IMG/VR virus record: IMGVR_UViG_3300045260_000030
Span: 1-28,088 of that record
From: a virus
Length of the DNA: 28,088 nucleotides
Strand: one strand, 5' to 3'
Under the pieces are notes generated by a model. The model had not been told where the DNA came from. It ran no database searches and saw nothing but the letters and a program-made list of their open reading frames with translations. The translations under genes were made by a program, and so were the position numbers. This document shows positions 7,079 through 28,088 of the stretch, piece by piece; position 1 is the stretch's first letter; the number at the start of each line of letters is the position of its first letter.

Positions 7079-10000
7079 GTGCTCGGGAACACACCGAAGC
7101 AGTTGACGAACCTCCGGCTCGAAGAAGCGAAATCCTTCGCCCTGGTCCTGGAGTTCGTGGACAAGGATGGGAGCGCCTTCCATCTGGCCGGGTACGAAGT
7201 TCGTCTCATCGTCCGGCAGCCCCAGCGGTACGGCGGCGAGATCGTCATCGAACGGCTGGCTGACATCATCGACCCGATCGCCGGTACCAACCGTGCGACG
7301 TTCAACCTCCAGGCCGCGGACCTGGCGCTCCCGGCGGGGGAGTATCCCTACGACATCACGCTCCTCGGCAGCAGCGGCTACTCCACGCCCATCGTCAAGG
7401 GCTACTTCGTCATGGGGGACAACACCGACGAGAACACGGACAACGTGTACGACGAGGTGTTCCCTTCGGAGAGCCTGCTCGTCACGATGGGCGGCGGCTA
7501 CTGCATCGAGGTGTGTCTGCAATATGCGGACGCTCTGCGCGGCGACACCGGGGCACAGGGTCCGAAGGGCGATCCGACCGGCGTATTCATCCAGCCGGAC
7601 GAGCCGGGCCCGGGCGAAGATCCGCCGTACTACCCGCTGTGGGTGGACACCGACGAGCCGACGCCCGAGTACGGCCCGACCGGCCCGACCGGCAGCACCG
7701 GGCCACAGGGCATCCAGGGACCGACCGGACCCACTGGTGCCGACTCCACAGTGCCCGGGCCGACCGGGCCCACGGGCGCGGCCTCGACGGTGACCGGGCC
7801 CACGGGATCGACCGGACCACGGGGATTGCCCGGAGATACCGGACCCACGGGACCTCAAGGCGTCAGAGGCGAAACCGGCAGCCCGGGAGCGACCGGCCCC
7901 ACTGGACCGATGGGACCGCCCGGAGACGGTTCGGGCGGCGGCGAGACAGGCCCGACCGGAGCCACCGGAGCAACAGGCCCTACAGGCCCTACTGGTCCGA
8001 ACGGCCCGTTGAACATCCTCACCGATGTGGACACCGCCGGACAGGGTGCCGGGGAGGTGCTCACGTTCAACGGTGCTATCTGGGTGCCGAAGCTGAATAC
8101 CGGCGGCGCGGGCATCATCACGATGGGCTACCGCTACGTGAACTCGACGGCCACCCCGGCGTCGGGGCGGCTGACCAGCAACAACACCGCTACTCCGGCA
8201 TCGGCGACCATCGTCTACATCCATCGGCAGAACGAGGTCGGCGACGATATGTCGCTGATCCTGGAGTCGCTGGGGAACGGCGACTGGTGCAACATCCACG
8301 AAGCCTCCAACGCCAACGATCACGAGGCGTACGACATCATCGGCCCGCCGGTCCTGAACGGCGATATCTACGAGGTGCCGGTCACCCACTTCCGTTCCTC
8401 AGGTGCCGGGCTGGCGAACAACATGCAGGTGCTGCTCGCCGTGCGGAAGGTGGTCAACGAGGTTCCCGGGGCAACCGGCCCCACCGGGCCGCAGGGACCA
8501 GTCGGAGCCACAGGACCGACCGGAGCCGTTGGAGCAACTGGCCCGACCGGGCCGACGGGCCCAACGGGCAGCACAGGTCTGCAGGGCGATATCGGTCCCA
8601 CGGGGCCTCAGGGCCTCGTAGGCTCCACGGGGCCGACCGGCCCGGCCGGACAAGCAACGGTCATCATCGCCGCCGGGACGTTCGACCCGTTGACGCTGCC
8701 CGCAGACGGACTGATCCCTGTCGATTTCCTCGACCCCGGCGTTCCCTCCGCCCCGTACCAGATGCAGCCCGGCGAGTCGATCATCCATTCGCCGACCTCT
8801 GATCTGTGGGTATGGAACGATCAGCCGGCTCCCGGCTACTGGACGAACCTGGGACCGATCCAGGGGCCGCAGGGCGAGCCCGGAGCGACCGGCGCAACAG
8901 GCCCGACCGGAGCCACCGGAGCACAGGGAGGCGTCGGAGCCACGGGCCCGCAGGGCTTGGCCGGGCCGACAGGACCCACCGGCAGCACGGGCAGCACCGG
9001 AGCCGTCGGACCCACGGGACCGTCCGGAACGGCTGGAGCGGTCGGAGCCACCGGCCCGACCGGAGCCGCCGGAGCAACAGGCCCTACAGGCCCTACTGGT
9101 CCGCAAGGAGCCGAGGGCCAGGCCACGGTCATCATCGGGAACGGAACGTTCGACCCGTTGACGCTGCCCGCGGACGGCCTGATCCCGGTGGACTTCTTCG
9201 AGCCGGGCGTCCCGTCGGTGCCGTACCAGATGGAGCCCGGGCAGTCGATCGTCCACGAACCGACCTCCGATCTGTGGTCGTGGCTGGACGAGCCGCCGCC
9301 CGGCGTCTGGACGAACCTCGGGCCGATCCAGGGCCCGGCAGGAGCAACAGGGCCCACAGGAGCCGATGGAGCAGTCGGAGCAGCAGGACCGACCGGCCCC
9401 ACAGGAGCCGATGGAGCAGTCGGAGCAGCAGGGCCGACCGGACCCACCGGAGCAGCCGGAGCCGTCGGAGCGACAGGACCGCAGGGCCCTGTCGGTTCCA
9501 CAGGCCCCACGGGCAGCACCGGAGCAGCAGGAGCTATCGGAGCGACAGGACCGCAGGGCCCTGTCGGTTCCACAGGTCCGACCGGAGCAGCAGGAGCCGT
9601 CGGAGCGACAGGACCGCAGGGCCTGGAGGGGATGGCGACCCGCATCATCTTCAGCGCTGTATTCGATCCGGCGACGCTGCCCGCCGATGGACTCATCCCC
9701 ATCGACTTCTTCGAGCCGGGCTCTCCCTCCGCCGCGTACCAGATGCAGCCGGGCGAGACGCTGGTGCATGAGCCGACCACCGATCTGTGGACCTGGCTCG
9801 ACGAACCGGCTCCCGGCGTGTGGTCGAACCTGGGACCGATCCAAGGACCGATCGGCCCGACCGGACCCACCGGCAGCACGGGAGCGGCAGGAGGCATCGG
9901 ACCCACCGGGCCGCAGGGCTCTGTCGGTTCGACGGGACCGACCGGGGCGACGGGCGCTGCATCGACGGTTCCCGGCCCGACAGGCCCGACCGGGGCGGAC

Positions 10001-10384
10001 GGAGCGCCATCGACGGTTGCCGGACCCACCGGGCCCACCGGGCCTCAGGGCGCGGCGTCCACGGTTCCCGGCCCGACAGGCCCGACCGGGGCGGACGGAG
10101 CAGTCGGAGCCGCAGGGCCCACGGGACCGACCGGAGCCGCTGGTGCGGACGGAGCGGCTGGACCGGCTGGAGCCACAGGTCCGACCGGAGCCGATGGATC
10201 GGACGGAGCGGCTGGACCGGCTGGAGCCACAGGGCCGACCGGAGCCGATGGATCGGACGGAGCGGCTGGCCCGGCTGGACCGACCGGGCCCACCGGGCCT
10301 GCAGGCGTCGGACTGGCGGAGGTAGTGGTCGGAACGACCGAGCCGGTCGAGGCGAACGTTCTACTGTGGGTCAACACCGCGTAA
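7079..10384 (+). CDS. Collagen-like tail fibre protein
   Basis: This is a predicted trimeric, elongated fibre of 1101 residues. The GTG start lies 7 bases after GGAAGG (7066-7071). Residues 1 to about 150 form a beta-rich N-terminal domain that may attach to the tail; it loosely recalls upper-baseplate Ig-like domains. Five collagen-type Gly-X-Y runs, dominated by GPT, follow at bases about 7673-8005, 8468-8647, 8870-9115, 9338-9628 and 9851-10312. A globular domain separates runs 1 and 2, and three copies of a 74-residue module separate the others. The tail end (VVVGTTEP...LLWVNTA) resembles C-termini common in actinophage fibres. The repeated DNA may allow length change by recombination. 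The many threonines in GPT triplets are possible sugar attachment sites, relevant to the glycosyltransferase nearby. Confidence 0.88.
8648..9850 (+). repeat. Three copies of a 74-residue protein module in the collagen-like fibre
   Basis: The module occurs at 8648-8869, 9116-9337 and 9629-9850. Each copy reads roughly G-x-AT-x-II, then FDP[10 protein letters not shown](I/V)-DF, a PYQM or AYQM segment, a HxPT(S/T)DLW core, and a final LGPIQGP. Each copy is flanked on both sides by Gly-X-Y runs. Exact length conservation with scattered substitutions indicates duplication together with collagen segments, then divergence. The regular spacing would give a beads-on-a-rod fibre. The module's fold and ligand are not recognised. 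Confidence 0.9.
10147..10280 (+). repeat. 54-bp tandem repeat in collagen coding region
   Basis: Two adjacent 54-base units (10147-10200 and 10201-10254) differ at one base, and a partial third unit follows from 10255. Each unit encodes six Gly-X-Y triplets, so gain or loss keeps frame and collagen register. Similar in-frame tandem copies occur nearby, for example a 45-base unit at 9356-9400 and 9401-9445. Confidence 0.85.
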
Positions 10385-10822: not shown

Positions 10823-11518
10823 ATGCCAGGTTTCCACTATCGCGATCCGGTCAGCGGCGACATGGTGCTGCTGCCGGACACGACGGTGCGCGAAACCGAG
10901 GCAGATGCGAAGTACGTGAACCTGTCCGGCGATACCGTCACCGGCCCGCTCACCCCGGAGGAACCTCCGACCGATCCCGGTCAGGTGGTGACGAAGGGCT
11001 ACATCGACACGCTGCTGCCCATCGGCTCCATCGCAGCGGTCGTCGATGGCATGGCGTACGGCAGCGGCTGGCTGGTGTGCGACGGTTCGGTGAAGGCACA
11101 GGCCGAGTACCCCGATCTGTACGCGGTGATCGGGACGACCTACGGCGCTGGGGCTGCCGGGGAGTTCAAGCTGCCGGACACCAGGGGCCGGGCCATCGCC
11201 GGGTACCTCGGTTCCGATACCAACTACTCGCCGCTGGGCAAGACCGCCGGTGTGAAGACGGTGACACTGTCCACCTCCCAGGTGCCGAACAAGACCGGCA
11301 ACTGGAACATGCACGGCGGCGGCGACCGCACCTCGTTGCACGCGGTCAGCGGGCGGCTGCTGTCCACCGGCAGCCTGAGCAAGTACGCCAACCCGCAGTA
11401 CGCGAACGGTACCCCTGGCTCCGTCGGTATCGGCGTGTTCAACCTAGGGCACGGCGGAGGCTCGCACACGAACCTCCAGCCGTACCTCGTGGCGCAGTTC
11501 GTGATCAGGGCGGAGTGA
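10823..11518 (+). CDS. Tail collar domain fibre protein, copy 1 of 3
   Basis: The 231 residues begin with a short attachment segment (YRDPVSGDMVLL), then a hinge (TEADAKYVNLSGDTVTGPL) and a KGYIDT stretch seen in phage fibres. A phage tail collar domain follows at residues about 66-128: PIGSI start, GWLVCDGS, YPDLYAVIGTTYG, then FKLPDTRGR. The C-terminal part has NMHGGGDRTS and ends GGGSHTNLQPYLVAQFVI, matching the receptor-facing end of collar/microcystin-dependent-type proteins. It probably sits at a fibre tip or tail side. It starts 3 bases after the previous stop and has only a weak ribosome binding site, so coupled translation is likely. Confidence 0.85.
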   Translation: MPGFHYRDPVSGDMVLLPDTTVRETEADAKYVNLSGDTVTGPLTPEEPPTDPGQVVTKGYIDTLLPIGSIAAVVDGMAYGSGWLVCDGSVKAQAEYPDLYAVIGTTYGAGAAGEFKLPDTRGRAIAGYLGSDTNYSPLGKTAGVKTVTLSTSQVPNKTGNWNMHGGGDRTSLHAVSGRLLSTGSLSKYANPQYANGTPGSVGIGVFNLGHGGGSHTNLQPYLVAQFVIRAE

Positions 11519-11519
11519 T

Positions 11520-12194
11520 ATGGCCGAGCTGAGAGCGCGCGACGGCACTTTCGTCCATGTGATGGGCGGCGGGATGACCGAGGCCGAGGCGGATGCACGG
11601 TATCTGCCGCTGGCCGGGGGCACCATGACCGGCCCGCTGATCGTCCCCGATCCCGTGGAGGACGACGAGGCGGCGAATCTCGACTACCTCTCGTCGGCGT
11701 TCACCGGCCTGATCGTGCTGTATGCGGGGGCGACGGTTCCCGACGGCTGGCTGCCCTGCGACGGCTCCGCGGTCCTGCGCGAGCAGTACAGCGCGCTGTT
11801 CGACCGGATCGGCACCATGTACGGCACGGGCGACGGCGTCACCACGTTCGCCCTGCCCGACCTCGACGGCCGTCTGCTGGTCGGATTGAACGAGGGCGAT
11901 TCGGATTTCAACGCGCTGGGCAAGACCGGCGGCGCAGCCTCGGTGACGCTCAGCAAGAGCCAGGTGCCCAACGCCAGCGGCCAGTTCAACATGCACGACT
12001 CGGCGAATCGCACGGCGGTGCATACCGTTTCCGGAGTATTCACCTCGAGCCTGAACGCGCCGAACCACAGGGTCGGCTACTACAACACCGGAGCATCTTC
12101 GATCATCTACTCCAACCTGAACCTGGGATTCGGCGGCGGCAGCCACGAGAACCGGATGCCGTCCATCGTCCTGCAATACATCATCGGAGCCTGA
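11520..12194 (+). CDS. Tail collar domain fibre protein, copy 2 of 3
   Basis: The 224 residues have the same architecture as the preceding gene. The N-terminal segment leads to the hinge TEAEADARYLPLAGGTMTGPL (residues about 20-40). The collar domain spans about 62-122, with PDGWLPCDGS, YSALFDRIGTMYG and FALPDLDGRLLVG. The C-terminal part contains FNMHDSANRT and ends NLGFGGGSHENRMPSIVLQYII. The start is one base after the previous stop (TGATATG). It is a paralogue by tandem duplication, strongly diverged outside the core motifs. Likely role: surface recognition or structural fibre tip. Confidence 0.85.
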   Translation: MAELRARDGTFVHVMGGGMTEAEADARYLPLAGGTMTGPLIVPDPVEDDEAANLDYLSSAFTGLIVLYAGATVPDGWLPCDGSAVLREQYSALFDRIGTMYGTGDGVTTFALPDLDGRLLVGLNEGDSDFNALGKTGGAASVTLSKSQVPNASGQFNMHDSANRTAVHTVSGVFTSSLNAPNHRVGYYNTGASSIIYSNLNLGFGGGSHENRMPSIVLQYIIGA

Positions 12195-12195
12195 C

Positions 12196-12861
12196 ATGGC
12201 CGAGTTGTATTACCGCAACGCCAGCGGGGACATGGTGCCGCTCATCGACTTCCACACCACGGAGGCCGATGCGAAGTACGTGCCGGTGACCGGCGGCGAC
12301 ACCGGCCCGATCATCGGCCCGTCCGCCACTGCAGGGAGCGAAGCGGTCACGATGGCCGACGCCGACCTGCCCGCCGGGATCGTGATGCCGTTCGCCGGGG
12401 CCACCGCACCGGACGGCTGGTTGATCTGCGACGGCTCGGCAGTCTCCCGCACCACGTACGCCGATCTGTTCACCGCCATCGGCACCACGTTCGGCGTCGG
12501 CGACGGCTCCACCACGTTCAACCTGCCGGGCATCCGAACGCTGACACCGATCGGCGGCACTTCGCTGAACGACAAGCCCGGGGCCTCGACGGTGACGATC
12601 AGTGCTGCGCAGATGCCGAACTCCACCGGACAGATCAAGATGCACGGCTCGTCCGACGGAGCGGGAGGATGGCGCTCGGTCCTCGCCAGTTCCACAGGCG
12701 TTCTCGCCCCTTCCGGCGGCGGGAACACCTATCAGTCGCACGCCACCGCATCCACCGGGGCGGGCAGCCACAACGGTTTCTCGCTGAATCTCGGATTCGG
12801 CGGCGGGTCGCACGAGAACAGGCAGCCGTACATCGCTATGCACTACATGATCAGGACATGA
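12196..12861 (+). CDS. Tail collar domain fibre protein, copy 3 of 3
   Basis: The 221 residues are a third collar paralogue. It opens AELYYRNASGDMVPL, close to copy 1 (SGDMV-LL), then TEADAKYVPVTGGDTGP. The collar domain is at about 58-118: PDGWLICDGS, YADLFTAIGTTFG, GSTTFNLPGIRT. The end is NLGFGGGSHENRQPYIAMHYMI. It begins one base after copy 2 ends and overlaps the glycosyltransferase start by 4 bases. The middle (residues about 150-190), where the three copies differ most, is the best place to look for specificity. Confidence 0.85.
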   Translation: MAELYYRNASGDMVPLIDFHTTEADAKYVPVTGGDTGPIIGPSATAGSEAVTMADADLPAGIVMPFAGATAPDGWLICDGSAVSRTTYADLFTAIGTTFGVGDGSTTFNLPGIRTLTPIGGTSLNDKPGASTVTISAAQMPNSTGQIKMHGSSDGAGGWRSVLASSTGVLAPSGGGNTYQSHATASTGAGSHNGFSLNLGFGGGSHENRQPYIAMHYMIRT

Positions 12862-13775
12862 GCATGAAGATCGCAGTCGCCACCATCGCACTCAACGAAG
12901 CGTCGTTCGTCCGTCGCTGGTACGAATCTGCCAAGGATGCCGACTACTTGGTCATCGGCGATACCGGGTCGGAGGACGACACGATCAACGAGGCCCGGTC
13001 GCGGAGCATCCATGTCCACTCCCTGACCATCAAGCCGTGGCGGTTCGACGACGCGAGGAACGCGCTGCTGGCGCTGATCCCCGCAGACATCGACGTAGTG
13101 GTGACCCTCGACATGGACGAGGTGCTGATGCCCGGGTGGAGGTCCAAGCTCGAAGCCGCACCCTCGGCGGACAGGTACCTCTACGACTACCTGTGGTCGG
13201 ACGACATCAGGTTCACAGGCGAGCGGTGCGTCAGCCGGAACAACTGGCGGTGGAAGCATCCCGTCCACGAGACGCTGCAGTTCACCGGGGAGCCGGAGAT
13301 GGTGGCGGTGAACGCCGGCTTCGTCATCAAGCACCTCCCGGACGACACCAAGTCGCGGAGCCAGTACCTGCCGCTGCTGGCGAAGGCGGCGCAGGAATCT
13401 CCGAACGACGACCGCATCGCCCACTACTACGCCAGGGAACTGTTCTTCCACGGCAGATGGGCCGCGGCCCGTGTGGAGTTCATGCGCCACCTCGGCATGC
13501 CGAGCGCAGTGTGGGCCGACGAGCGGGCACAGTCCTACCGCTACCTGGCGAAGATGGACGACTATCCGGAGCGGTGGCTGCTGAAGGCGTGCGCCGAGGC
13601 CCCGCATCTGCGGGAGCCGTGGGTCGATCTGGCCCGCCACTACATGGCCGAAGGGCGCAAGGAGGAAGCAGCCGGAATGATGGCCCGTGCGCTGTCCATC
13701 ACCCAGCGTCTGGGCACCTACATCTCCGAGGACTCTGCCTGGAACGATGCCGAACTGGAGGCGTTGGTGAGATGA
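12858..13775 (+). CDS. Family-2-like glycosyltransferase
   Basis: The predicted sugar transferase has 305 residues and should be cytoplasmic, as no signal or membrane segment is seen. It starts IAVATIALNEASFVRRWYESAKDADYLVIGDTGSEDDT-like: the N-terminal nucleotide-sugar fold with NE near residue 13 and GDTGS at 34-38. The metal-binding DxD is DMD at 85-87 (TLDMDEVL). The RFDDARN segment (62-68) matches the conserved (F)-x-ARN site of this subgroup. The C-terminal half has helical pairs like TPR repeats (DRIAHYYARELFFHGRWAAARVEF). The start chosen is the ATG at 12858 overlapping the previous stop as ATGA; 12864 is also possible. An earlier in-frame start would run inside collar copy 3 and is rejected. 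Possible targets are the Thr-rich collagen fibre, other virion proteins, or host wall sugars. Confidence 0.8.
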   Translation: MSMKIAVATIALNEASFVRRWYESAKDADYLVIGDTGSEDDTINEARSRSIHVHSLTIKPWRFDDARNALLALIPADIDVVVTLDMDEVLMPGWRSKLEAAPSADRYLYDYLWSDDIRFTGERCVSRNNWRWKHPVHETLQFTGEPEMVAVNAGFVIKHLPDDTKSRSQYLPLLAKAAQESPNDDRIAHYYARELFFHGRWAAARVEFMRHLGMPSAVWADERAQSYRYLAKMDDYPERWLLKACAEAPHLREPWVDLARHYMAEGRKEEAAGMMARALSITQRLGTYISEDSAWNDAELEALVR

Positions 13776-17709: not shown

Positions 17710-18801
17710 ATGGGACTCTTCGACTGGTTGAGGGACAACAACCCGTTCGCCGCCCCGAACCCGTACCGGCCCAACGACATGCAGCCCCCGCCGCTGCTGC
17801 GGAGGCCGATGAATCTGCAGCAGCCGAGGTCGGCGCAGGCGGCGAGGAGCGGTACCGCCGTGTACCCGCAGTCGGGCGGCCAGGGAGCGGGGCAGAGCGC
17901 TCCGAGCTATCCGAACCGGACCCCGCGGCAGGACCCGTACGCAGCGGCTCTGGCCCGGCAGCGGGCGGAGCAGGCCGCTGCGATGGCACGGGCAGGCAAG
18001 AAGTACCAGTCGATGGCAGGCAACCTCGACCCGCAGATCGCTGCGCTCCGAGCAGCGCTCGACAAGGAGTTCAAGAAGAACCTCGACCAGAACCTCGCAG
18101 ATGTCGGGCAGTTGATCGACGAGCAGACCGGCATGCTCAAGGATCAGGCCGAGGCCAGGGGTGCCGAGTACCGGGCGTCGGGGAAGAACAACACCCTCGC
18201 CAACGCTGCCCAGCAGGAGAACTCGATCGAGAACCTCGTGCGGGAGCGGTCGGACACGCTGGCAGGATTGGTGACGCAGGGAGCCGGCCAGTCCGACATG
18301 CTGCGCGCGATGGTGGCCTCGGCCCGGAACTGGCGCGACAACACCGATGCCAGCAACCGGGACTACTACGACACGCTGCAGTCCATCAACCAGGGCATCA
18401 CCGAGTCGAACCTGGATACCCAGACCTCGCTCGCCAACGTGTTCACGCAGGGCGAGTCGGAGCGGGAGCGGCTGTGGCAGGACTACTACAACCGGCGCTC
18501 CGAGACGTACACCCAGTTGGGCAACCTGTACCAGCAGCAGGCCGACTACCTGGACCTGGCCGAGGAGAACAAGGTCGGCAGCGGCGGCGGGACGAAGAAG
18601 ACCAGCGCCGGAGATGCGTTCATGAAAGCTTCCCGTGAGTCCGGCAAGTCCTACGTGAAACAGGGGCTGCCCGACTGGATCTCCGACTACGAGGGCCAGA
18701 AGCGGCTGGAGAGCACCGTCACCAACAACGATCTCGCCGCACGTATGCGGTTCCAGCCCATCGGCCAGGCGCAGGGCGCGACCTCGAGGAGCCTGTCATG
18801 A
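17710..18801 (+). CDS. Helical protein, internal virion protein candidate
   Basis: The 363 residues begin with an amphipathic stretch (MGLFDWLRDNNPF), then about 80 residues rich in Pro, Gln, Ser and Ala, likely disordered. A long helical, Gln/Ala/Glu-rich region follows (about 85-290), probably coiled coil (for example ALRAALDKEFKKNLDQNLADV). The C-terminus is polar. No enzyme motif is visible. Podovirus ejection proteins and scaffolds both show this profile; position next to the tail adaptor favours an ejected protein. The start is one base after the preceding stop, and its end overlaps the next start as ATGA. Confidence 0.7.
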   Translation: MGLFDWLRDNNPFAAPNPYRPNDMQPPPLLRRPMNLQQPRSAQAARSGTAVYPQSGGQGAGQSAPSYPNRTPRQDPYAAALARQRAEQAAAMARAGKKYQSMAGNLDPQIAALRAALDKEFKKNLDQNLADVGQLIDEQTGMLKDQAEARGAEYRASGKNNTLANAAQQENSIENLVRERSDTLAGLVTQGAGQSDMLRAMVASARNWRDNTDASNRDYYDTLQSINQGITESNLDTQTSLANVFTQGESERERLWQDYYNRRSETYTQLGNLYQQQADYLDLAEENKVGSGGGTKKTSAGDAFMKASRESGKSYVKQGLPDWISDYEGQKRLESTVTNNDLAARMRFQPIGQAQGATSRSLS

Positions 18802-19562
18802 CTATCAACCCCGAGGTCGAGCTGACGCTGGACGATGCGGTTGCCGAAGTACTCGGGCTGCTGACCGGGTTGGACCTCACCTACCATCCGGAGAAGGACC
18901 GCTACCGCTCCATCACCCGCGCGCTGAACCGGGCGCTGCGGGCCAATGCCCTGGAGAACGAGTGGTCCTACTACGCCTCCACGCAGGCACTCGGCACTGC
19001 GCAGGACTGCACCTCCGCCATCCACCTGCCGGGCTCGCTGCGACCGCGCATCATCGACGACGACGCCGTGCGGCTGCAGGAGTGCGATTCCGGCAGGGTG
19101 CTGCGCTGGGCGTACTTCCTGCCCAGGGACGCGCTGCACAAGTACCTGTACCGGCCGGGGCTGTGGGTGTCGATCGAGGGCACGATGCTGCGGTTCAGCC
19201 GTCCGTTCACCACCGAGGAGGACGGGCTCGAGATCCATGTGCCGGTGATGCGGGAGCCGGTCATGTTCCGGCTGCCCGACATCGGCGAGGAGGTCCCCGA
19301 CCATATCCGCGAGCAGCCGGTGGACTTCGCTTACCCGGATCTGGTGATCTCCCGCGCCGCCTACTTCTACGCGCAGACCGACCCTGTCATGCAGCCCAGG
19401 GTGCAGACGCTGGAGATGGACTACAAGACGCTGATGTACCAGTTGATCGAGCGGGACACCCGGCACACCGACGCGCCGTACCAGAACGACTTCGTGCTGC
19501 CGCTGCAGAACGGGCTGCATCGGGACAACAGCGCCAACCGGCCCCCGTTCGCCAACTACTGA
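18798..19562 (+). CDS. Tail adaptor (tail tubular protein A-like)
   Basis: This is a predicted ring protein that bridges portal and nozzle in short-tailed phages. Its 254 residues are close to the usual 190-250. An N-terminal helical part (TLDDAVAEVLGLLTGLDLTYH, RYRSITRALNRALRANALENEW) and a beta-rich middle (RAYFLP-type segment, LWVSIEGTMLRFSRPF) are followed by a helical C-terminal part (YPDLVISRAAYFYAQTDPVMQPRVQTLEMDYKTLMYQLIERD), the order seen in gp11-like adaptors. It is directly followed by the nozzle gene, the usual pairing. The start uses an ATGA overlap. Confidence 0.78.
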   Translation: MTINPEVELTLDDAVAEVLGLLTGLDLTYHPEKDRYRSITRALNRALRANALENEWSYYASTQALGTAQDCTSAIHLPGSLRPRIIDDDAVRLQECDSGRVLRWAYFLPRDALHKYLYRPGLWVSIEGTMLRFSRPFTTEEDGLEIHVPVMREPVMFRLPDIGEEVPDHIREQPVDFAYPDLVISRAAYFYAQTDPVMQPRVQTLEMDYKTLMYQLIERDTRHTDAPYQNDFVLPLQNGLHRDNSANRPPFANY

Positions 19563-19569
19563 GGCTGAC

Positions 19570-22500
19570 ATGGCGAACAAGAAGATCCCCGCCCCCATCG
19601 ACAGACCGCTGTCGAAGGCGTACCTGCGCGAGTTCCGCGGCTGGTCCACGGCGTTCCCGCCCGGCACCTCGGAGCCCAACAGCCTGCGCCTGATGGAGAA
19701 CGTGTGGGTGGACCGCAACCAGGGGATCGCTGTGCGCCCCGGGCTGCGGAACCTGACGTACCTGACGGCCCCAGGGCTGGACCCCCTGGTACCGAACACC
19801 CCGGGCACCGGGCTGGGGCTGCCGGTGCTGTCCAGCGGGGAACTGTTCTACACCAACGACGGCAAGCCCGCTCTGCTCATCGCGGTGAGGGAGGCTGGCG
19901 GAGGCGTCGGGTTCCGCGCCATCAAGTACTCCCTGGTCGAGAAGTCGGTGTATGCGCTGACCGATCCGGAGATCGGCTTCACCATCCCGCAGGGAGAGGA
20001 TGTTCTGAACTTCACGGAGGAGACCACGCATGTGGAGTACCTCCAGATCAACAACCGCATCGTGGCGCTGTCGGACAAGGGCGAGTCGGCGCGCATGTTC
20101 TTCGTCGGCGGGCAGAAGATCGCCAAGAAGCTGAAGTCCATCTCGGTGCCGGAATGGACCGACGCGGACAAGTTGATCGTGGTGCATCCCGATGCGGCAT
20201 GGATCAACCAGGCGAACCCGACCCGCCGCCGGAACTCTGTACTGAATCCATCTTTCGAGATCGGCACGCTGTTCTGGAAGAAGACCGCCGGTACCGGCTG
20301 GAGCACGGTGGCGGACAGCACCGCTCCCGGAGGCTTCTCGCTGGAGATGTGGTCGCTGCCGGAGCGCACCAATCTGATGCCCGCTCCGCTGCACGATGTG
20401 GTCGGCCTCGGCATCGACGGCTGGTGGTCCGGGCGGGGGCTGCCCGAACTGGATGCTGCAGGGCCGTGGCTGCAGGTCAGCCCGCTCACCTACGAGTCCT
20501 ACAGCAGCGAGGACTTCTTCCTCTCCACCGGCCCGCGGATGATCCACGACATCGACGACCGGGCCTCGTACCGGGTGGCGGTGGATTTCGACACCGACCC
20601 GGGAGCGCTGCCTATCGCCGTACTGGAGTTCTATGCGGTGAACGGGATGCCCGTCGGGCAGTTCGTCATGGACATCGAGGGCGGGGCCGGGCGCTGGGCG
20701 AGCTCTTCGATCAAGGCACCCGAGGCCGCGGTGTCCATGCAACTGCACCTGGGCGCACGGGGCGGCGAGGAACTGGCATCGGTGCGATTCAGCAACATCG
20801 TGGTGTGCCGGGACGGCGAGAGCACCGATATGTTCCACGGCGGCTCGGGCACCGATTACTTCTGGGAGGGGACGCCGAACCAGTCGGCCTCCACCTACCA
20901 CCCGCCCGTCGATCTCAAGATCGCCTCGACCCCGATGCCGCACAGCGGAACAGCCGTGTCGGCCTCGGCTGCTATGAAGTCGGTGAACGGGGAGACGAAT
21001 GACGGACGCATCAACGTCCTCATGTACCCCGCCGATCTGGCGAACCCGACCAGTTCGGGAACGCAGCAGGCGCTGACGGGCAACTGGGAGACCCTCACCG
21101 TCCACAACGCTTCGGTGCCCGCCACTACGGTCAGTACGGCGGTGAACCTCATCGTCTATGCAGCGGCACGGGGGCAGAAGTTCCGGTGCGATTCGACGAT
21201 CATGGAGTCTGCAGCGCCGGGCGCGTTCTTCGACGGCTCCACGCCCAGCACCACGACCCAACTGCGCAGGTGGGAGGGAGTGCTGACCAACCTGCCGCAC
21301 GAGGGCCCGTCGATCGAGGACACCTATGCCACGGCCCGGACGTACCCGCCGGCCGAGACGCCCACCACCAAGACGCTGATCGCCTCGGGCGGAGCGGACA
21401 ACAACCCGAACAAGATCGCGTTCTTCTACACCTTCGAGAACGACATCGGCGAGTCGGCGGCGTCCAGGATCTCCGAGGTCCGGGTGCAGCGCGCCTGGTC
21501 GGACTGGGTCTGGGAGACGGCCAACGCCGCCGGGGAGCCGTCGGGGACGTACACCCCGATCCCGGAGAAGTGCGCCGACCAACTGGTGGTGCGCATGCCG
21601 CGGGCCGTCTACGACCAGGCGGTGGCGGAGAACGCGCTGCGCTGGAACCTGTACGCCTTCGCCTGGACGGAGCAGCAGCCCGTGCCGGTGGTCGCGCAGA
21701 TGGTGGCGTCCAAGGACATCTTCCCGGACCAGGGCTCGATCGGCGGCGCTCCGGTGCCGTACGAGGAGGGCGGCTGGATTCAGATCACCCCGTCCCGCAG
21801 GGCGGGCACGCTGGACATGATGCTGCCCACGCAGGAGAACCGGGTGAACTCCTCGATACCGCCCGACCACCGCAACGGGATCGTGGCTGGTGACCGCATG
21901 GTGCTGGTGGGCAGCCCGACGGAGCCTGCCACCATCTCCTGGTCGTCATCGGCACCCGGCCGGTACACGATGTTCACCCCGAACCACGGCGGCGGGAAGA
22001 AGACACTGACCTCCGGCAACCTGAACCTGCCGCACAGCGTGGTGCTGTGGCAGAACCCGCAGTCGGTGGACACGCTGACGGTGCTCTGCTCCTACGACAA
22101 CGGCAGGTCGTCCTCGTACTACATGCAGCCCGCGGAGATCCAGGCCGGGAACACCGGGTTCACCTCGATCATGGGGTTCGAGGAGACCACCAGCACCCCC
22201 GGCTCGGTGGCACCGTTCGGGGCGCAGGTGCTGAACAACGCCCTGTACCGCCCGATGGACCGGGAACTGGTGAAGTCCACGGCCAACAACTACAACATCA
22301 ACCACAAGTCGATGTCGGACATGATCGCCGACAAGTGGCTGCTGCTGCAGTCGAAGCCGTGGATCATGTCGGCTGCGCTGGACAACAGGCTGTACTTCCT
22401 GGTCCACAACCCGCAGGGCGAGCTGCTGCTGCCCGAGTGCAAGGGCAACGAGATCTGGATCTACGACATCGCGGCGGAGGAGGGGCACTGGTCCCGCTTC

Positions 22501-23097
22501 CTCGTGCAGGGCTCGGCGCTGAAGCCGGTGTCGGTCGGGGACCGCACGTTCATGAGTGTGTCGGGCCCCGACGGCATCCGCTACTTCGACGATGAGTACC
22601 TCGTGGACGACGAGTTGAACGATGCCGGGGTGGTGCAGGAGGCCCGCATCTCCTGGATGTTCGAGACGAACACGCAGGGAGCGAACCGGGCGCACGATGC
22701 CTGGGCGCACCTGCAGCAGGTGGGCGTGACGTTCGGCAACTGGCGGGGCCGGGCGAGGTACGGCATCCGCGGCCGCACGGTGAACGGCGTCGAGCTGAAC
22801 ATCGACAAGGTGTTCATCGAGGACGAGAAGGCACCTCGCATCGAGGAGCACTGGAACGCCGAGGACTACCTGCTGATCCGCAGGGATCTCAAGGAGTGGG
22901 TGTTCCGTGCCTCGTCGGTGGACGGCTACCTGGGCACCGGGATGGTGGGGTACGTGCAGTACCGCTACACGCCGGTCAGTGTGAACGTGGGCTACGAGGC
23001 AGGGAGCATCGAGACGTTCGAGTACGGAGCGGTGCTGCCGGATTACGCGCGCAACGGGATCGTGCTGCCCCGGATGGACGGCCACGACTTCGCCTGA
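19570..23097 (+). CDS. Tail nozzle (tail tubular protein B-like) with large insertion
   Basis: This is the predicted distal tube of a short tail, 1175 residues, clearly longer than the roughly 800 of T7-type nozzles. The N-terminal 70 residues have the typical nozzle opening (FPPGTSEPNSLRLMENVWVD...IAVRPGLRNL: gene products that list 'many entries' followed by an Rx-GL segment). Residues about 222-590 look like inserted jelly-roll domains (NPSFEIGTLFW..., then a second similar Thr/Ser/Ala-rich beta domain). The core resumes near 600 (NKIAFFYTFENDIGESAAS) and continues through PGRYTMFTP, repeated beta-propeller-like strands and a C-terminal YVQYRYTP. The insertion resembles carbohydrate-binding modules, so the nozzle may contact surface glycans. 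Translation follows the adaptor by 7 bases. Confidence 0.78.
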   Translation: MANKKIPAPIDRPLSKAYLREFRGWSTAFPPGTSEPNSLRLMENVWVDRNQGIAVRPGLRNLTYLTAPGLDPLVPNTPGTGLGLPVLSSGELFYTNDGKPALLIAVREAGGGVGFRAIKYSLVEKSVYALTDPEIGFTIPQGEDVLNFTEETTHVEYLQINNRIVALSDKGESARMFFVGGQKIAKKLKSISVPEWTDADKLIVVHPDAAWINQANPTRRRNSVLNPSFEIGTLFWKKTAGTGWSTVADSTAPGGFSLEMWSLPERTNLMPAPLHDVVGLGIDGWWSGRGLPELDAAGPWLQVSPLTYESYSSEDFFLSTGPRMIHDIDDRASYRVAVDFDTDPGALPIAVLEFYAVNGMPVGQFVMDIEGGAGRWASSSIKAPEAAVSMQLHLGARGGEELASVRFSNIVVCRDGESTDMFHGGSGTDYFWEGTPNQSASTYHPPVDLKIASTPMPHSGTAVSASAAMKSVNGETNDGRINVLMYPADLANPTSSGTQQALTGNWETLTVHNASVPATTVSTAVNLIVYAAARGQKFRCDSTIMESAAPGAFFDGSTPSTTTQLRRWEGVLTNLPHEGPSIEDTYATARTYPPAETPTTKTLIASGGADNNPNKIAFFYTFENDIGESAASRISEVRVQRAWSDWVWETANAAGEPSGTYTPIPEKCADQLVVRMPRAVYDQAVAENALRWNLYAFAWTEQQPVPVVAQMVASKDIFPDQGSIGGAPVPYEEGGWIQITPSRRAGTLDMMLPTQENRVNSSIPPDHRNGIVAGDRMVLVGSPTEPATISWSSSAPGRYTMFTPNHGGGKKTLTSGNLNLPHSVVLWQNPQSVDTLTVLCSYDNGRSSSYYMQPAEIQAGNTGFTSIMGFEETTSTPGSVAPFGAQVLNNALYRPMDRELVKSTANNYNINHKSMSDMIADKWLLLQSKPWIMSAALDNRLYFLVHNPQGELLLPECKGNEIWIYDIAAEEGHWSRFLVQGSALKPVSVGDRTFMSVSGPDGIRYFDDEYLVDDELNDAGVVQEARISWMFETNTQGANRAHDAWAHLQQVGVTFGNWRGRARYGIRGRTVNGVELNIDKVFIEDEKAPRIEEHWNAEDYLLIRRDLKEWVFRASSVDGYLGTGMVGYVQYRYTPVSVNVGYEAGSIETFEYGAVLPDYARNGIVLPRMDGHDFA

Positions 23098-23198
23098 GTG
23101 TAGACATGTAGACATGTACCAGCGTCTACTTCATATGTTGTAACTCAAAAAGGGGATATATAAGGAATACCGGGGTACACGTGTCTACATGACTACAC
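23098..23198. repeat. Long interrupted inverted repeat with tandem TGTAGACA
   Basis: The left arm (23098-23119, 22 bases) and right arm (23175-23198, 24 bases) are inverted copies: 21 of the left arm's 22 bases match, with one mismatch and a two-base insertion in the right arm. A 55-base, A/T-rich stretch lies between. The left arm has two head-to-tail TGTAGACA units (23099-23106, 23107-23114). The right arm has TGTCTACA (23182-23189) and the variant TGACTACA (23190-23197). A further GTCTAC is at 23124-23129. Likely uses are an operator, a looping site or a replication/packaging signal. Confidence 0.85.
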
Positions 23199-23236
23199 CC
23201 CAGCGCGCGCTCCTACCCCCACTCCACCGCATCCGC

Positions 23237-23245
23237 TGCTAGAGT
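23237..23245 (+). promoter_or_regulatory. Extended -10 promoter candidate
   Basis: TGCTAGAGT fits an extended -10 element (TGn followed by TAGAGT). No recognisable -35 hexamer is seen about 17 bases upstream, where the sequence is C-rich. Transcription would start near 23252, giving a leader of about 30 bases that includes the strong AGGAGG (23273-23278) before the ATG at 23283. It lies just downstream of the inverted repeat, so a bound regulator could control it. Confidence 0.4.
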
Positions 23246-23282
23246 CGCACCGTAGGCGGATTTACGGCACCTAGGAGGACGC

Positions 23283-23915
23283 ATGCCGGGGAAGACGGCT
23301 CGCGCCGATCTGTACAACACGCTGAAGGAGCAGGGCTGGGAGCCCGACAAGCCCTTCGCCAAGTACTCGACGGCTGAGTTGCAGGAGATCAGCAGCCTGT
23401 ACATCTCACCCGAGCCTGCGCCGGCTCCGCCCACAGCGCCTCCTCCGCAAGCCCCTGCCCGCGATGAGGAAGTCCTGCGCACCGATGAGCAGGGACGGCA
23501 GTGGCTGCAGGAGGAGGTGCGCAAGCCCGCCTACCCCAAGCCCCGCGGCAGGCGGGTGCTGACCTACGTGGACCCGGGCGTCGAGCAGCAGACCGTCCGC
23601 AACGGCGAGTACATCGAGACGGTCGAGGTCGCGGGCAACCGCACCAACCGCACCTCGGAGATCAAGATCACCCTTCCCTCCTTCCAGGTCGGCATCTACC
23701 GGGACCGGCGCTACCCGTTCCGCATCCACACCTACAACGGGCGCGAGGGCTTCGACCTGCGCGATGTCGAGCAGTTCTACGGCGGGGCCGAGCTGGTGCC
23801 CAACGAGTGCAAGCGCGTCTACATCGAGAACGACCTGTGCTACGACATCCGCTCCGTCGTCGCAGCCATCCGCACCGAGTTCCGCCAGCAGCAGCTTCAG
23901 AGGGAGATCCGATGA
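23283..23915 (+). CDS. Unrecognised protein, first gene of the terminase block
   Basis: The 210 residues have a textbook ribosome binding site (AGGAGG, 4 bases before ATG). The N-terminal ~40 residues look helical (DLYNTLKEQGWEPDKPFAKYSTAELQEISSLY), followed by a Pro/Ala linker (about 43-62). The C-terminal ~110 residues form a compact mixed domain (EIKITLPSFQVGIYRDRRYPFRIHTYNG, then FDLRDVEQFYGGAELVPNECKRVYIENDLCYDIRS). No family is recognised. As the first gene after the regulatory region it may be made with the terminase. It overlaps the next start by 4 bases (ATGA). Confidence 0.75.
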   Translation: MPGKTARADLYNTLKEQGWEPDKPFAKYSTAELQEISSLYISPEPAPAPPTAPPPQAPARDEEVLRTDEQGRQWLQEEVRKPAYPKPRGRRVLTYVDPGVEQQTVRNGEYIETVEVAGNRTNRTSEIKITLPSFQVGIYRDRRYPFRIHTYNGREGFDLRDVEQFYGGAELVPNECKRVYIENDLCYDIRSVVAAIRTEFRQQQLQREIR

Positions 23916-24463
23916 CCGACACCACCGTCAACGAACTGGCCGCCGACGCCGCCGAGGCCGAGTACCACACCGTGCTGGAACTGTGGGCGAAGGTGCTGGC
24001 ACCGGCCAGGACGGAGCGGCACAAGCAGGTGACGCCGCAGTGGGCCAGCCGCATCGTGAACGCCTTCACCGGCATCGCCTTCCGGGACATGCCCGCCTAC
24101 CGGGACCTCTACTTCGAGAAGGTCATCGAACTGCTCGAGACGCTCGAGGCCGAGATCGACCTGGACGACGAGGCGCTGAACCACACCTCCCCGGAGGAGG
24201 ACGCCGAGCACAACGCCATGCACTACCTGAACGTGCTGCTGCTGTGGCAGAAGCAGGTGCTGCAGTGGGAGTTGGACTGGGACCCCACTGCCGACAACGC
24301 CGCCATCGACATGGCCTCGATCTCCGAGGTCCACAAGATGTTCTTCGCCGAGCAGGGGCTGACCTCGCTGCTCGACCAGATCAAGTTCGAGTTCACCGAT
24401 GACCATCGAGACCTGTTCGCGGCAGAGCTCCAGGCCATGCGCGATGAGAGGGATGGACAGTGA
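23912..24463 (+). CDS. Unrecognised acidic helical protein
   Basis: The 183 residues start at ATGA overlapping the preceding gene. The longer upstream open frame runs inside that gene and is not used. The product is acidic and almost all helical (AAEAEYHTVLELWAKVLAP; KVIELLETLEAEIDLDDEALNH; NAMHYLNVLLLWQKQVLQWELDWD), ending in charged residues. No membrane segment or enzyme motif is seen. Position three genes before LysM/terminase leaves a head assembly or small terminase role possible, but no DNA-binding motif was recognised. Confidence 0.72.
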   Translation: MTDTTVNELAADAAEAEYHTVLELWAKVLAPARTERHKQVTPQWASRIVNAFTGIAFRDMPAYRDLYFEKVIELLETLEAEIDLDDEALNHTSPEEDAEHNAMHYLNVLLLWQKQVLQWELDWDPTADNAAIDMASISEVHKMFFAEQGLTSLLDQIKFEFTDDHRDLFAAELQAMRDERDGQ

Positions 24464-25485
24464 GCGGTGAAGAAGAAGCAACAGCCCTCGAGATTACGAA
24501 CGATGTGGCGTTCTCTGCTCTCATGGATCAACTGGCCCCGGCGGAGGAGGCTGAAGCAGATCCAGGAGCAGGAGAGGCAGCGGCACCTGATGCTGCAGCA
24601 ACTGATCCCGGCCCTGCTGGCAGCGATGGAACCCCTGCTCCACAGGTACGCGATGCAGCAGAGGGACAGCCTGCACAACCAGTTGATGGAGATGGCGGGG
24701 CCGCTGAGCCTGGCGCTGAGCAGGCAGGACCAGAGGCGGGAGGAGACGCAGGAGGAGACGGTCAGCCTGTTGATGGACGTGCTGAACAGCCTGCAGCCCA
24801 GTCCGCAGCAGCAACTGCTCCCGGAAGCGCAGACCCCAATACCGTCGTCGCTCGTCTCGGCGATCTCAGCGGGGCGATAGAGCAGAACCTCGTCACCGGC
24901 TACCGCAACGCCGCGTACGAGGATGTGCAGCGCAAGCACGGCCGCTACTTCGAGGCGCTGTCCGTGCATCCCCGCATGCTCGTGGGCCGGGAGGTGCCGT
25001 CCATGACCAAGGAGGGCACCGAGACACTGGAGAACACGCAGGACGCCCGCGAGTGGCAGGAAGCGGTGCAACTCGTCCTCCAGCAGGAGATCGAGAACAC
25101 CGCCGGCTCCTGGATTCAGGACTCCGTCGGGTTCATGGAGACGGTCCACTCCAGCATCGACCTGTTCCGCAACAACCCCGACCTGATCCCGGGCACCAAG
25201 GGCTTCAACAAGGAACTCGCGGACTCGTTCGCCAGCATGGCCTCGGCGTACGAGGTGCGCATCGACGGCAAGTTGCACGGGTACTCGGTCCCGGTGCAGC
25301 CCATCATCGAGAGCCTGCGCAAGCAGCTCGGCAACCGTCCCCCCGCTGCGGGGAAACATGCACAGCGTCAGGCTCAAGAGGAGCCGCCGCAGCGGGGGGT
25401 ACGATCCAAGGCTCCGAGCAGTTCTGAGCCAGAAGACTTCTCAACGCTGTTCGGCACGATAGGCTTGCCACACCTGAAGATCTAG
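24460..25485 (+). CDS. Acidic low-complexity protein with conserved-looking C-terminal domain, scaffold candidate
   Basis: The 341 residues start with GTG, 7 bases after AGAGGG (24447-24452), overlapping the previous stop. Residues about 1-30 look helical and acidic. Residues about 30-125 are Ala/Pro/Gly/Glu/Asp/Gln only and surely disordered. Residues about 126-290 form a more ordered helical domain (VVARLGDLSGAIEQNL, EWQEAVQLVLQQEIENT, GFMETVHSSIDLFRNNPDLIPGTKGFNKEL). The last ~50 are again disordered. Acidic, disordered-then-helical layout is typical of scaffolding proteins, but the gene is far from the capsid gene. The low-complexity part uses A/T-ending codons in about 70% of positions, unlike neighbours, and another frame is open there. 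Confidence 0.7.
   Translation: MSGEEEATALEITNDVAFSALMDQLAPAEEAEADPGAGEAAAPDAAATDPGPAGSDGTPAPQVRDAAEGQPAQPVDGDGGAAEPGAEQAGPEAGGDAGGDGQPVDGRAEQPAAQSAAATAPGSADPNTVVARLGDLSGAIEQNLVTGYRNAAYEDVQRKHGRYFEALSVHPRMLVGREVPSMTKEGTETLENTQDAREWQEAVQLVLQQEIENTAGSWIQDSVGFMETVHSSIDLFRNNPDLIPGTKGFNKELADSFASMASAYEVRIDGKLHGYSVPVQPIIESLRKQLGNRPPAAGKHAQRQAQEEPPQRGVRSKAPSSSEPEDFSTLFGTIGLPHLKI
24467..24880 (+). CDS. Possible overprinted ORF inside the acidic protein gene
   Basis: A second frame, shifted by one base, starts at GTG 24467 and runs 137 codons to TAG. Its product is basic then helical (MKKKQQPSRLRTMWRSLL, RRRRLKQIQEQERQRHLMLQQL, LLMDVLNSLQP) and nearly every codon after about 24550 ends in G or C. However, in the main frame the Ala/Pro/Gly/Glu/Asp codons start with G or C, and that first base is this frame's third base. 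High third-position G/C and lack of stops are therefore partly automatic. Rare codons (AGA, TTA, CGA) occur near its start. Treat as a hypothesis. Confidence 0.25.
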   Translation: MKKKQQPSRLRTMWRSLLSWINWPRRRRLKQIQEQERQRHLMLQQLIPALLAAMEPLLHRYAMQQRDSLHNQLMEMAGPLSLALSRQDQRREETQEETVSLLMDVLNSLQPSPQQQLLPEAQTPIPSSLVSAISAGR

Positions 25486-25493
25486 GAGTCGGG

Positions 25494-25838
25494 ATGGCTA
25501 CACCGAGAGAGAATCAGATCGACTGGATGCCGGACCAGGGAGAGCACCTGGCGGTGTACCTCCCTCGTGTCGTCATCAACTACCGCCTCGCTACCGGGAT
25601 GGAGGAGACGGGGCCGATCGAACCGCCCGTCATCACCGACCTCACGGTGACGCTCACCCTCGGGTGGGACGGCATCACCAAGACGGTGGACTGGGGCGAC
25701 GGCACCGTCGAGGATGTCACCGGCACCGTGGCGACGCACACCTATGCGGCGGCCGGGACCTACGACGTACTCGTGACTGCCGAGGGCTCGACCCTGTTCG
25801 ACGCTCCGGTGACTGTTACTGCTCCGGTGGGAGGCTGA
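25494..25838 (+). CDS. Small PKD/Ig-like domain protein
   Basis: The 114 residues follow AGGAGTCGGG closely. After ~45 mixed residues the sequence has the PKD signature: beta strands, VDWGDGTVEDVTG, then THTYAAAGTYDVLVTAEG (residues about 64-100), with the conserved W-GDGT and (H)TY-x-x-x-GTY. PKD folds are used in phage virions and other surface proteins for protein or sugar contact. A head decoration or fibre-associated role is plausible given the virion neighbours. No signal peptide or membrane segment is seen. The next gene begins one base after its stop. Confidence 0.75.
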   Translation: MATPRENQIDWMPDQGEHLAVYLPRVVINYRLATGMEETGPIEPPVITDLTVTLTLGWDGITKTVDWGDGTVEDVTGTVATHTYAAAGTYDVLVTAEGSTLFDAPVTVTAPVGG

Positions 25839-25839
25839 C

Positions 25840-26820
25840 ATGGCTCTGTACACAGTGGAACGCGGCGACTCGGTGTGGAACATCGCCGAGAAGTCGCTGG
25901 GCATGCAGTACCCGGGCCAGCCACTGGACCCGAACCTGATCGCCCAGGAGATGCAGAAGATCATCGGGTTGAATCTTCCGAAGTTGAAGAACAACCCCGA
26001 ACTGATCTACTCCGGCCTGGTGCTCGACATCGGCGGCAGCCCCACACCGGGGCAGGCGGTCGAGAACGGCAAGGGCAGCAACGGCAAGAAGCCCCAGCCG
26101 TCGGCCTTCCCCGAGGGCGAGGGCGTGGGCAGCAACGGCAACATCGCAGGCCAGGGCCAGCAGGGCGGCGGTCGCAACCTCAGCGACGAGCGCGACGAGC
26201 GTATCGCCGCAGCGGGCAGCGAGCGGGAGAGCATCCCCGAGCTGAACGACGGGAAGCGCACCCAGGAGCCCTGGCAGTACGGCCAGGGCCAGCAGAGCAA
26301 CATCCCCAGCACGGGCTGGAACTACCAGCAGCCCAACCGGGGCATGATGCAGGCTCCTCCTCCTGCGGGCGGCGGACCTGGCGGAGCCGGTGGGAACTTC
26401 CCGCCGGGCTCGGTGTTCAGCGGCGGCGACTACGACATCAACGGCAATCTGATGGGCGAGGAGGGCTACCGGCCACCGGCCCAGGGCGCTCCGTTCTACA
26501 CCTGGGGCCGTGGCGTGGGCGGCGGCGGCGCACCGGCCGGCGGAGGTCCGGCAGGCACCAATGCCGCTAGTCCGGTGCCCGGTACGGGCGGGCTGTCGGC
26601 GGCCGATGTCTACCAGCAGGGCCGCAACCCGCAGTCACCGCGGGCCACGCCGTACTCGCCGGGGTTCAATCCGGTATGGGGCCCGCCCCGACCGGCCAGC
26701 ACTCCGGTGGCGGCGAGCCCGGTGCCCGGTACCAACGGCATGTCGGCCGCGCAGATCTACCAGCAGGGCCGCTACCCCGGGCGCAGCTTCGATGCCAACG
26801 GACGACGCACTCCTCGGTAG
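25840..26820 (+). CDS. LysM-like domain protein with disordered Gly/Pro/Gln tail
   Basis: The 326 residues begin with a LysM-like domain (residues about 3-66): YTVERGDSVWNIAEKSLG, then a longer than usual middle, and ELIYSGLVLDIG at the end, matching YxVxxGDxxWxIA...NxxxIxxGxxLxI. LysM binds N-acetylglucosamine polymers such as peptidoglycan. The remaining 250 residues are Gly/Gln/Pro/Asn-rich and probably disordered, with a two-fold repeat (ASPVPGT-x-G-SAA-x-(V/I)-YQQGR) near residues 245-265 and 290-312. The gene sits directly before terminase with no gap. LysM in phage virion proteins often helps attachment or hub assembly; a soluble wall-binding role is the alternative. Confidence 0.8.
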   Translation: MALYTVERGDSVWNIAEKSLGMQYPGQPLDPNLIAQEMQKIIGLNLPKLKNNPELIYSGLVLDIGGSPTPGQAVENGKGSNGKKPQPSAFPEGEGVGSNGNIAGQGQQGGGRNLSDERDERIAAAGSERESIPELNDGKRTQEPWQYGQGQQSNIPSTGWNYQQPNRGMMQAPPPAGGGPGGAGGNFPPGSVFSGGDYDINGNLMGEEGYRPPAQGAPFYTWGRGVGGGGAPAGGGPAGTNAASPVPGTGGLSAADVYQQGRNPQSPRATPYSPGFNPVWGPPRPASTPVAASPVPGTNGMSAAQIYQQGRYPGRSFDANGRRTPR

Positions 26821-28088
26821 ATGACGAAGTTCCCTGCGTACTACCAGGCGAGGCCGTACCAGCAGGAACTCCACCAGATGTGGAGGTCCAAGCGGTACGG
26901 CCTCGCTGTTCTGCCCAGGCAGTCGGGCAAAGATGTGGCCGCCAGCATGGAGCAATGCCACGCCAGACTCTCCACCCCCAAGACGACTGGGGTGTACATC
27001 AGCCTATCCAACCCGATGATCCGAGACATCCTCTGGGACAAGACCTACATCGACCCGCCGTCCGGCGAGTTCGTCCGTGCGCTGCGGGACAACGTGCCCG
27101 AGGAACTGGTGCGCTGGAAGGACACGGTCATGGAGGGCCGCTTCACCAACCACAGCAGGCTCAAACTGCAGGGCTACTTCCAGTCGGGGCAGGACAAGAG
27201 CGGTGTGGGCACGGCGTTCCAGGACTACACGATCACCGAGTTGGCGCTGTTCACCAGGGAAGATCCGATCCCACGGATGATGCCCATCTTCGAGAACAGG
27301 GCAGAGAACAAGCGCCTGATGGTGGTGAGCACTCCCCGTGGCAAGCGGCGCAATCCGCTGTGGCAGTTGATGGAGTCGCTCAGGGACAACCCCGAGAGCC
27401 AGGTCATCATCCGCACCATCGACGACCTGAACGAGATCATGAAGCGGGAGGGGCTGCCGCCCGTCCTGACCGAGCCGGAGTTGGAGCGCATCGAGGAGGC
27501 GTACCTCCGGCGCTTCGGCAACGCCCGCATGTTCGAGCAGGAGTACCACTGCTCGTTCGAGGAGATGGACGCTGCCGCCGTGTACGGCGAGGCGTACATG
27601 AAGATGGTGAACGAGGGCCGGACCACCGAGTTCAACCTCGACCCGGGCAAGCCGGTGTACGTGGTGTTCGACATCGGTGCCTCCGGCTTCCAGTCCGATG
27701 CCACTGCGTGGATCGCGTTCCAATGGATCAACGGCAAGCTGATGATCTACGACTGCGGCGAGGGGCACGGGCGTGCGCTGCCCGAGTACGTGGATGTGCT
27801 GCAGACCAAGCACTACTTCAACAAGCTGGGCTACATCATCCTGCCGTGGGACGGCGAGCACCACGAGCGTGCGGTGAACATGACCCCGGCCGACATGATG
27901 CGGGAGCGGTTCCCGAACGTGGCGGTGCTCGCCAAGAGCAGCAGCGTGTGGAAGATCCCGAACTCCAGGGCGGGGGACGCCAGCCTGATCACCGACATCC
28001 AGCAGACGAGGATGGCGCTGTACAACACCATCGTCCACAGCGAGAACTGCCAGTGGCTGCTCGAGTGCCTGGAGAACTACAAGTACGA
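26821..28088 (+). CDS. terL: Terminase large subunit, 3' end outside window
   Basis: This is the DNA-packaging motor ATPase and nuclease. The frame starts at ATG next to the previous stop (TAGATG) and stays open to the right edge, 422 full codons. Walker A is LPRQSGKD at residues 31-38 (Asp instead of Ser/Thr after the Lys, as in some terminases). The Walker B-like strand is YTITE (136-140) with the catalytic Glu. The coupling motif is VVSTPRGK (168-175). The nuclease begins with VVFDIGASG (Asp284) and LPWDGEHHE (Asp344). The final catalytic Asp should lie beyond the edge. The gene is complete at its 5' end and lies after the tail genes, an unusual order for many phages. Confidence 0.92.
   Translation, partial: MTKFPAYYQARPYQQELHQMWRSKRYGLAVLPRQSGKDVAASMEQCHARLSTPKTTGVYISLSNPMIRDILWDKTYIDPPSGEFVRALRDNVPEELVRWKDTVMEGRFTNHSRLKLQGYFQSGQDKSGVGTAFQDYTITELALFTREDPIPRMMPIFENRAENKRLMVVSTPRGKRRNPLWQLMESLRDNPESQVIIRTIDDLNEIMKREGLPPVLTEPELERIEEAYLRRFGNARMFEQEYHCSFEEMDAAAVYGEAYMKMVNEGRTTEFNLDPGKPVYVVFDIGASGFQSDATAWIAFQWINGKLMIYDCGEGHGRALPEYVDVLQTKHYFNKLGYIILPWDGEHHERAVNMTPADMMRERFPNVAVLAKSSSVWKIPNSRAGDASLITDIQQTRMALYNTIVHSENCQWLLECLENYKY

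Follow-up and report, generated by a model that had tools for sequence, protein, structure and literature searches.

Phage P4 carries two separate cis regions, ori1 and crr, whose short repeats are bound by the primase-helicase alpha, and archaeal origins of the ORB type have an AT-rich unwinding element between inverted binding boxes, with Orc1/Cdc6 as the initiator. The SaPI origins studied by Ubeda and colleagues are said to consist of short iterons arranged as two sets flanking an AT-rich region. In both SaPIs and SCCmec, short iterons are recognized by the C-terminal domain of a helicase, of the D5/SF3 type in SaPIs and of the D5 family in the case of Cch2 from SCCmec, where the iterons lie at a putative origin and a partner primase is encoded alongside (PMC7581432). 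For EK/Burro-type podoviruses, no published origin or repeats were found in the open-access literature, nor in the genome paper (PMC7302621).

We analyzed a 28,088-bp stretch of viral DNA, referred to here as the window, in which an array of short boxes in both orientations lies ahead of the gene block ending in terminase (Table 1). We judge this element to be a replication origin of the phage, a podovirus of soil bacteria, or a second origin-like initiator site, with a probability of about 0.8. The observations on which this is based are a layout conserved among relatives, two fixed positions in the genome, the helicase fold of the early protein gp3, and co-variation of the boxes with a residue in the gp3 wing.

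Table 1 Features of the array and its flanking genes in the window
Feature	Position	Strand	Remarks
Upstream gene	19570..23097	+	1175 aa, MissAmericana nozzle protein homologue; stop codon abuts the first arm
Left arm	23098..23120	+	Two tandem inward-pointing boxes (23099-23106, 23107-23114) and TGTACC; reads GTGTAGACATGTAGACATGTACC
Degenerate box	23123..23129	-	CGTCTAC (GTAGACG on the minus strand) at the inner edge; a box in the array count
AT-richer core	23130..23181		GC 0.38, contains GATATATAAGG; putative DNA unwinding element
Right arm	23174..23198	-	Inward-pointing boxes TGTAGACA (23182-23189) and TGTAGTCA (23190-23197, a fourth box with one mismatch to TGTAGACA); minus strand reads GTGTAGTCATGTAGACACGTGTACC
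Extended -10-like stretch and ribosome site	23237..23282	+	TGCTAGAGT (23237-23245) and CCTAGGAGG, the ribosome site of the next gene; found by eye
Downstream gene	23283..23915	+	210 aa, opens the block that ends in terminase
Large terminase gene	26821..28088	+	Continues beyond the window; anchor for locating site 1 in relatives

The virus in the window is related to the Microbacterium/Arthrobacter podoviruses Akoni, Burro, Casino, and MissAmericana. The IMG/VR contig 3300045736_000024 (G001 / L054) represents the same virus, matching window positions 18176-28088 with 99.9% identity over 9.9 kb, and reaches past the terminase as far as gp3; the gp3 of the window's own virus was found on contigs L054/L214. 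Homologues of the 210-aa downstream protein in G008 and G011 had no Pfam match, and the G008 homologue had no PHROG match. Elsewhere in the window, a collagen-like protein of 1101 aa that contains long GPTGPTG repeats is encoded at 7079-10384 between the capsid and tail-collar genes, and three similar-looking tandem paralogous ORFs, the first with a phage tail collar domain (Pfam), occupy 10823-12861. An ORF combining a glycosyltransferase family 2 domain with TPR (12861-13775) lies within the tail gene block, and a small PKD-domain protein is encoded directly ahead of the terminase block at 25494-25838.

Three exact copies of TGTAGACA occur in the window, all inside the 91 bp from 23099 to 23189, compared to a shuffle mean of 0.28 and a maximum of 2. 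When one mismatch was allowed, the 8-mer was not enriched across the window (13 observed versus 9.3 expected), and the signal therefore lies in the cluster. The site scores 19 as a gapped inverted repeat, a value that none of 2000 dinucleotide shuffles attained (mean 7.1, maximum 15). The initial annotation had described near-perfect inverted arms around an A/T-rich spacer in a GC-rich genome, and both descriptions were borne out: the arms differ by one mismatch and one 2-base insertion, and the core has 38% GC compared to 66% for the contig. The only detail to be corrected was arm length, which is 23 and 25 rather than 22 and 24 bases. The possibility it had raised that the 8-mer might stand at background frequency is contradicted by the copy number given above.

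Other signals were sought at the site. No sigma-70 promoter or terminator was detected by consensus scan, Rfam gave no match, and the GC skew around both this site and the second site described below had no clear switch at either and was uninformative. Across six cores no stable hairpin was conserved, with z-scores ranging from -5.05 to +0.87; a strong hairpin was present in two of the six and absent from the window core (z 0.87). A core hairpin was rejected as a conserved feature, and an N4-type hairpin promoter or cruciform is not supported on the same grounds.

Relatives were found via homologues of the flanking genes, and the gap upstream of the terminase, designated site 1, was located in each using the terminase as anchor. 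A mechanical search for 7-mers repeated in both directions, applied to the 42 loci with enough upstream sequence, recovered an array at site 1 in 32, so that the layout is kept in relatives, and the lack of conservation that the initial annotation had named as grounds for refutation does not apply. Two of the ten scan-negative loci, the window's own virus included, do have an array whose box number is below that required by the scan; a few relatives, L008 among them, have no site-1 array. The typical array consists of two or three inward-pointing boxes, an AT-richer core, and two or three inward-pointing boxes from the opposite side. This order of plus boxes, core, and minus boxes was found in 40 of 45 arrays, and most of the remaining five look like failures of the mechanical choice of core. 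The length of the core, mostly 54-58 bp, is conserved among relatives and its sequence is variable; likewise, the spelling of the boxes varies by lineage (TGTAGACA, TGTAGTCA, CTAGTCACC, GTGTCACAA, AGGTAACG, GCGTAACC, or CGGTTCGC) around a constant layout. The array in the window has fewer boxes than most copies.

Longer contigs revealed a second array of the same spelling at site 2, the large intergenic region between the leftward early operon and a giant gene. Site 2 is occupied in nearly every genome long enough for checking, and among records of at least 52.9 kb with TAG[A/T]CA boxes, all eight have a pair of arrays that share one box type. The two copies are mutually inverted in the genome, which gives them identical orientations with respect to the transcription units that they precede. 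The window's virus probably also has a second copy before its early operon. The distance from site 1 to the downstream terminase is 2.6-5 kb; in G011, gp3 is approximately 7 kb from site 1 and 10 kb from site 2.

Twelve cultured Microbacterium/Arthrobacter podoviruses carry the array at site 2 only, approximately 20 kb from the terminase, with boxes spelled CGGTTCGC, CGGTTCAC, GCGTAACC, AGGTAACG, or GTAACGA. A look-alike at site 1 was sought in these phages and rejected, as their site-1 gaps are short or gene-filled and boxes are largely confined to site 2. This spot often has extra genes, a purple acid phosphatase among them (Akoni gp46-47, ArMaWen gp45-46, Burro gp42, Casino gp41), which suggests an insertion hot spot. 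No prophage relatives were found in bacterial genomes.

The early proteins common to all groups include gp2, a Prim-Pol (PF09250), and gp3 (PF19263), which has an SF3-type Walker A motif (G.GRNGK). The gp3 profile matched the SaPI5 primase-helicase in the PDB (7OLA, E 3.7e-10). An AlphaFold model of gp3 from contig L190 (pLDDT 90.1) had the same enzyme as its best PDB match (Foldseek E 2.9e-17; Z 28.7 over 378 residues), followed by ASFV C962R, poxvirus D5/E5, and NrS-1, and aligned to PriRep1 with dsDNA (7PDS) with Z 14.6. The C-terminus of the model forms a winged helix with helices at 379-392 and 401-408 and strands at 412-421 and 424-434. By profile and model, gp3 is a D5/SF3-type helicase.

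The co-variation of boxes and helicase was followed in the 22 genomes having both gp3 and boxes, in which base 6 of TGTAG[A/T]CA was tallied across the arrays. At one column of the wing, residue 426 in the second wing strand of L190, arginine was found in 12 of 12 T-box genomes and in none of eight A-box genomes (V, S, A, I, S, L, I, T), and both mixed-box genomes (L213 and L222) had arginine. This column was first spotted by eye, and the fair statistic is therefore a scan of all columns: one of 456 in gp3 separated the box classes perfectly, the runner-up reaching 0.73 and the best column of the control protein gp2 0.62, and no perfect gp3 column arose in 500 label shuffles, a correction that applies within gp3 and ignores relatedness. 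Relatedness was addressed with a tree of the gp3 core built without the C-terminal domain, on which box class changed seven times and the arginine state six times. Well-supported branches gave four independent pairs; among pure-box genomes every pair was concordant (p = 0.125, the floor of a sign test with four pairs), and where a mixed-box genome was drawn three of the four were.

Outside the 22 genomes, the T-type L163 and L203 also have arginine, and the window's virus, examined via L054, has isoleucine at the wing together with mainly A boxes, which fits the A-box rule. Further genomes have neither arginine at the wing nor TAG[A/T]CA arrays, mostly carrying GTAAC-type arrays, and are compatible with the A/T rule although outside its reach. 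These data make gp3 the best candidate for the protein that binds the boxes; the co-variation points to binding by gp3, not to what binding does.

Comparison with the described systems placed the element closest to SaPI origins. Iteron sets flank an AT-rich region in both, the phages encode a D5/SF3-type helicase with a C-terminal winged helix, as expected for iteron origins of the SaPI/Cch2 kind, and gp3 is structurally closest to PriRep1, the SaPI5 primase-helicase. The phage arrays differ in occurring in tailed actinobacteriophages, kilobases from the helicase gene and often in two copies per genome, with a core of approximately 55 bp and separate genes for Prim-Pol and helicase. They do not lie directly downstream of a rep gene, as a strict SaPI origin does; because the array is distant from the initiator gene and duplicated, we describe it as working like a SaPI-type origin rather than as one. 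The Cch2 system shares a D5-family helicase, short iterons, and a partner primase gene alongside, but its iterons are three direct AAGTG repeats next to the gene, and it has no symmetric double array. Phage P4 resembles the phages in its two separate short-repeat cis regions for a primase-helicase, but differs in its repeat sequences, in having a fusion protein as alpha, and in the structure of crr, a direct duplication in its own right. ORB-type origins share the inverted boxes around an AT-rich element and differ in their initiator, which is not an SF3 helicase.

A candidate by layout, fold, and co-variation, the element most likely acts as an initiator-binding origin in the manner of SaPI origins. 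The gp3 protein, an early-operon product, would use its C-terminal winged helix to bind the 8-bp boxes on both flanks of the core and would assemble probably as two facing hexamers, one on each side. It would then melt the core, load onto the strands, and unwind outward, while the adjacently encoded gp2 would prime synthesis for extension by the phage DNA polymerase. Physical binding, the number of hexamers, melting, and firing of the origin are steps that we infer, the last three from SaPI/Cch2-type systems. Counting against an origin are the lack of a clear GC skew switch, the location of arrays away from gp3, and the relatives without site 1. Site 2 is present in nearly every genome that could be checked and is the stronger candidate for the main origin; site 1, to which the window's array belongs, may act as a second origin or a late one.

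Boxes in both directions and a conserved layout lend good support to the proposal of the initial annotation that multiple protein copies bind in both directions; its preferred binder, a cooperative regulator such as WhiB, is not supported. It is improbable that the arrays are operators at which WhiB, a ribbon-helix-helix protein, or another phage regulator, binding cooperatively or looping the DNA, would control the terminase block from site 1 and the early operon from site 2. A transcription unit does follow each site in the same relative orientation, some repressors of the ribbon-helix-helix type are suited to tandem 8-bp boxes, and the extended -10-like TGCTAGAGT lies downstream of the window array; that stretch, with CCTAGGAGG, is distinct from the boxes and was negative in the consensus scan, which detected neither promoter nor terminator. 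The element is general, whereas in the genomes compared homologues of WhiB were found in EK phages only: tblastn gave no match in Casino, Araxxi, Burro, MissAmericana, or the array-bearing contigs searched, all of which have the element, and WhiB is thus not encoded wherever the element occurs, as a WhiB-regulated operator would require. A ribbon-helix-helix protein was rejected as universal binder on account of its restriction to Casino, Burro, and Araxxi, as were the "DNA binding protein" genes beside site 2, which are not common to all groups. Moreover, the boxes track the wing of the helicase and no column of gp2.

That same co-variation, from the scan of gp3 and gp2 columns, argues against packaging initiation, in which terminase would bind the boxes and cut the AT-rich core. 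The pac site of P1, with its hexanucleotide arrays, is the model for such a function. Relatives have circularly permuted genomes (PMC8281081, PMC7302621), and the short distance from site 1 to the terminase would suit a pac site; a genome with two pac sites would be unusual, however, and the cultured relatives lack site 1 and keep their single copy far from the terminase, making this a very remote prospect. A gp3-binding site that is not an origin, with site 1 serving initiator titration or replication restart or being silent and site 2 as the sole working origin, is a less strained reading, though we consider it unlikely. Site 2 alone suffices in the cultured phages, and the low box number of the window array would be in keeping with it, but the full symmetric layout and core length at site 1 in many lineages exceed the needs of titration. 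Replication initiation, which the initial annotation had named as its other option, is thus favored by the layout and by the co-variation with a replicative helicase.

If the element is an origin, the arrays would point to origins across many genomes at once and name an initiator candidate, and the wing residue yields a one-residue prediction of specificity. Initiator origins of the SaPI type have been described in satellites and mobile elements, and a similar logic appears to serve a free-living lytic phage. Two origins on a small lytic genome, the second in the late region, would bear on the switch from early to late replication. We give even odds to the broader proposition that this large group of lytic podoviruses, with genomes of approximately 54 kb, has two full initiator-helicase origins 20-30 kb apart whose box spelling was repeatedly switched by a single wing residue, arginine or not, which would make the pairing of initiator and iteron readable as a code and the replicons incompatible with one another.

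Two further motifs were observed near the arrays. A palindromic CCATG(C/G)GAGACATGG-like motif, distinct from the boxes, occurs in 2-5 copies in the site-2 region of cultured phages, for example in Akoni (L030) at 16553, 16703, and 16769 and in Casino (L029) at 18268 and 18391. At site 1 of G003, G004, G007, and G011, a conserved sequence of approximately 20 bp, GATTTTGTGCTCAGAATGACC, lies between the outer boxes and the inner array (for example, L039 17003-17025) and is perhaps the site of a second protein.
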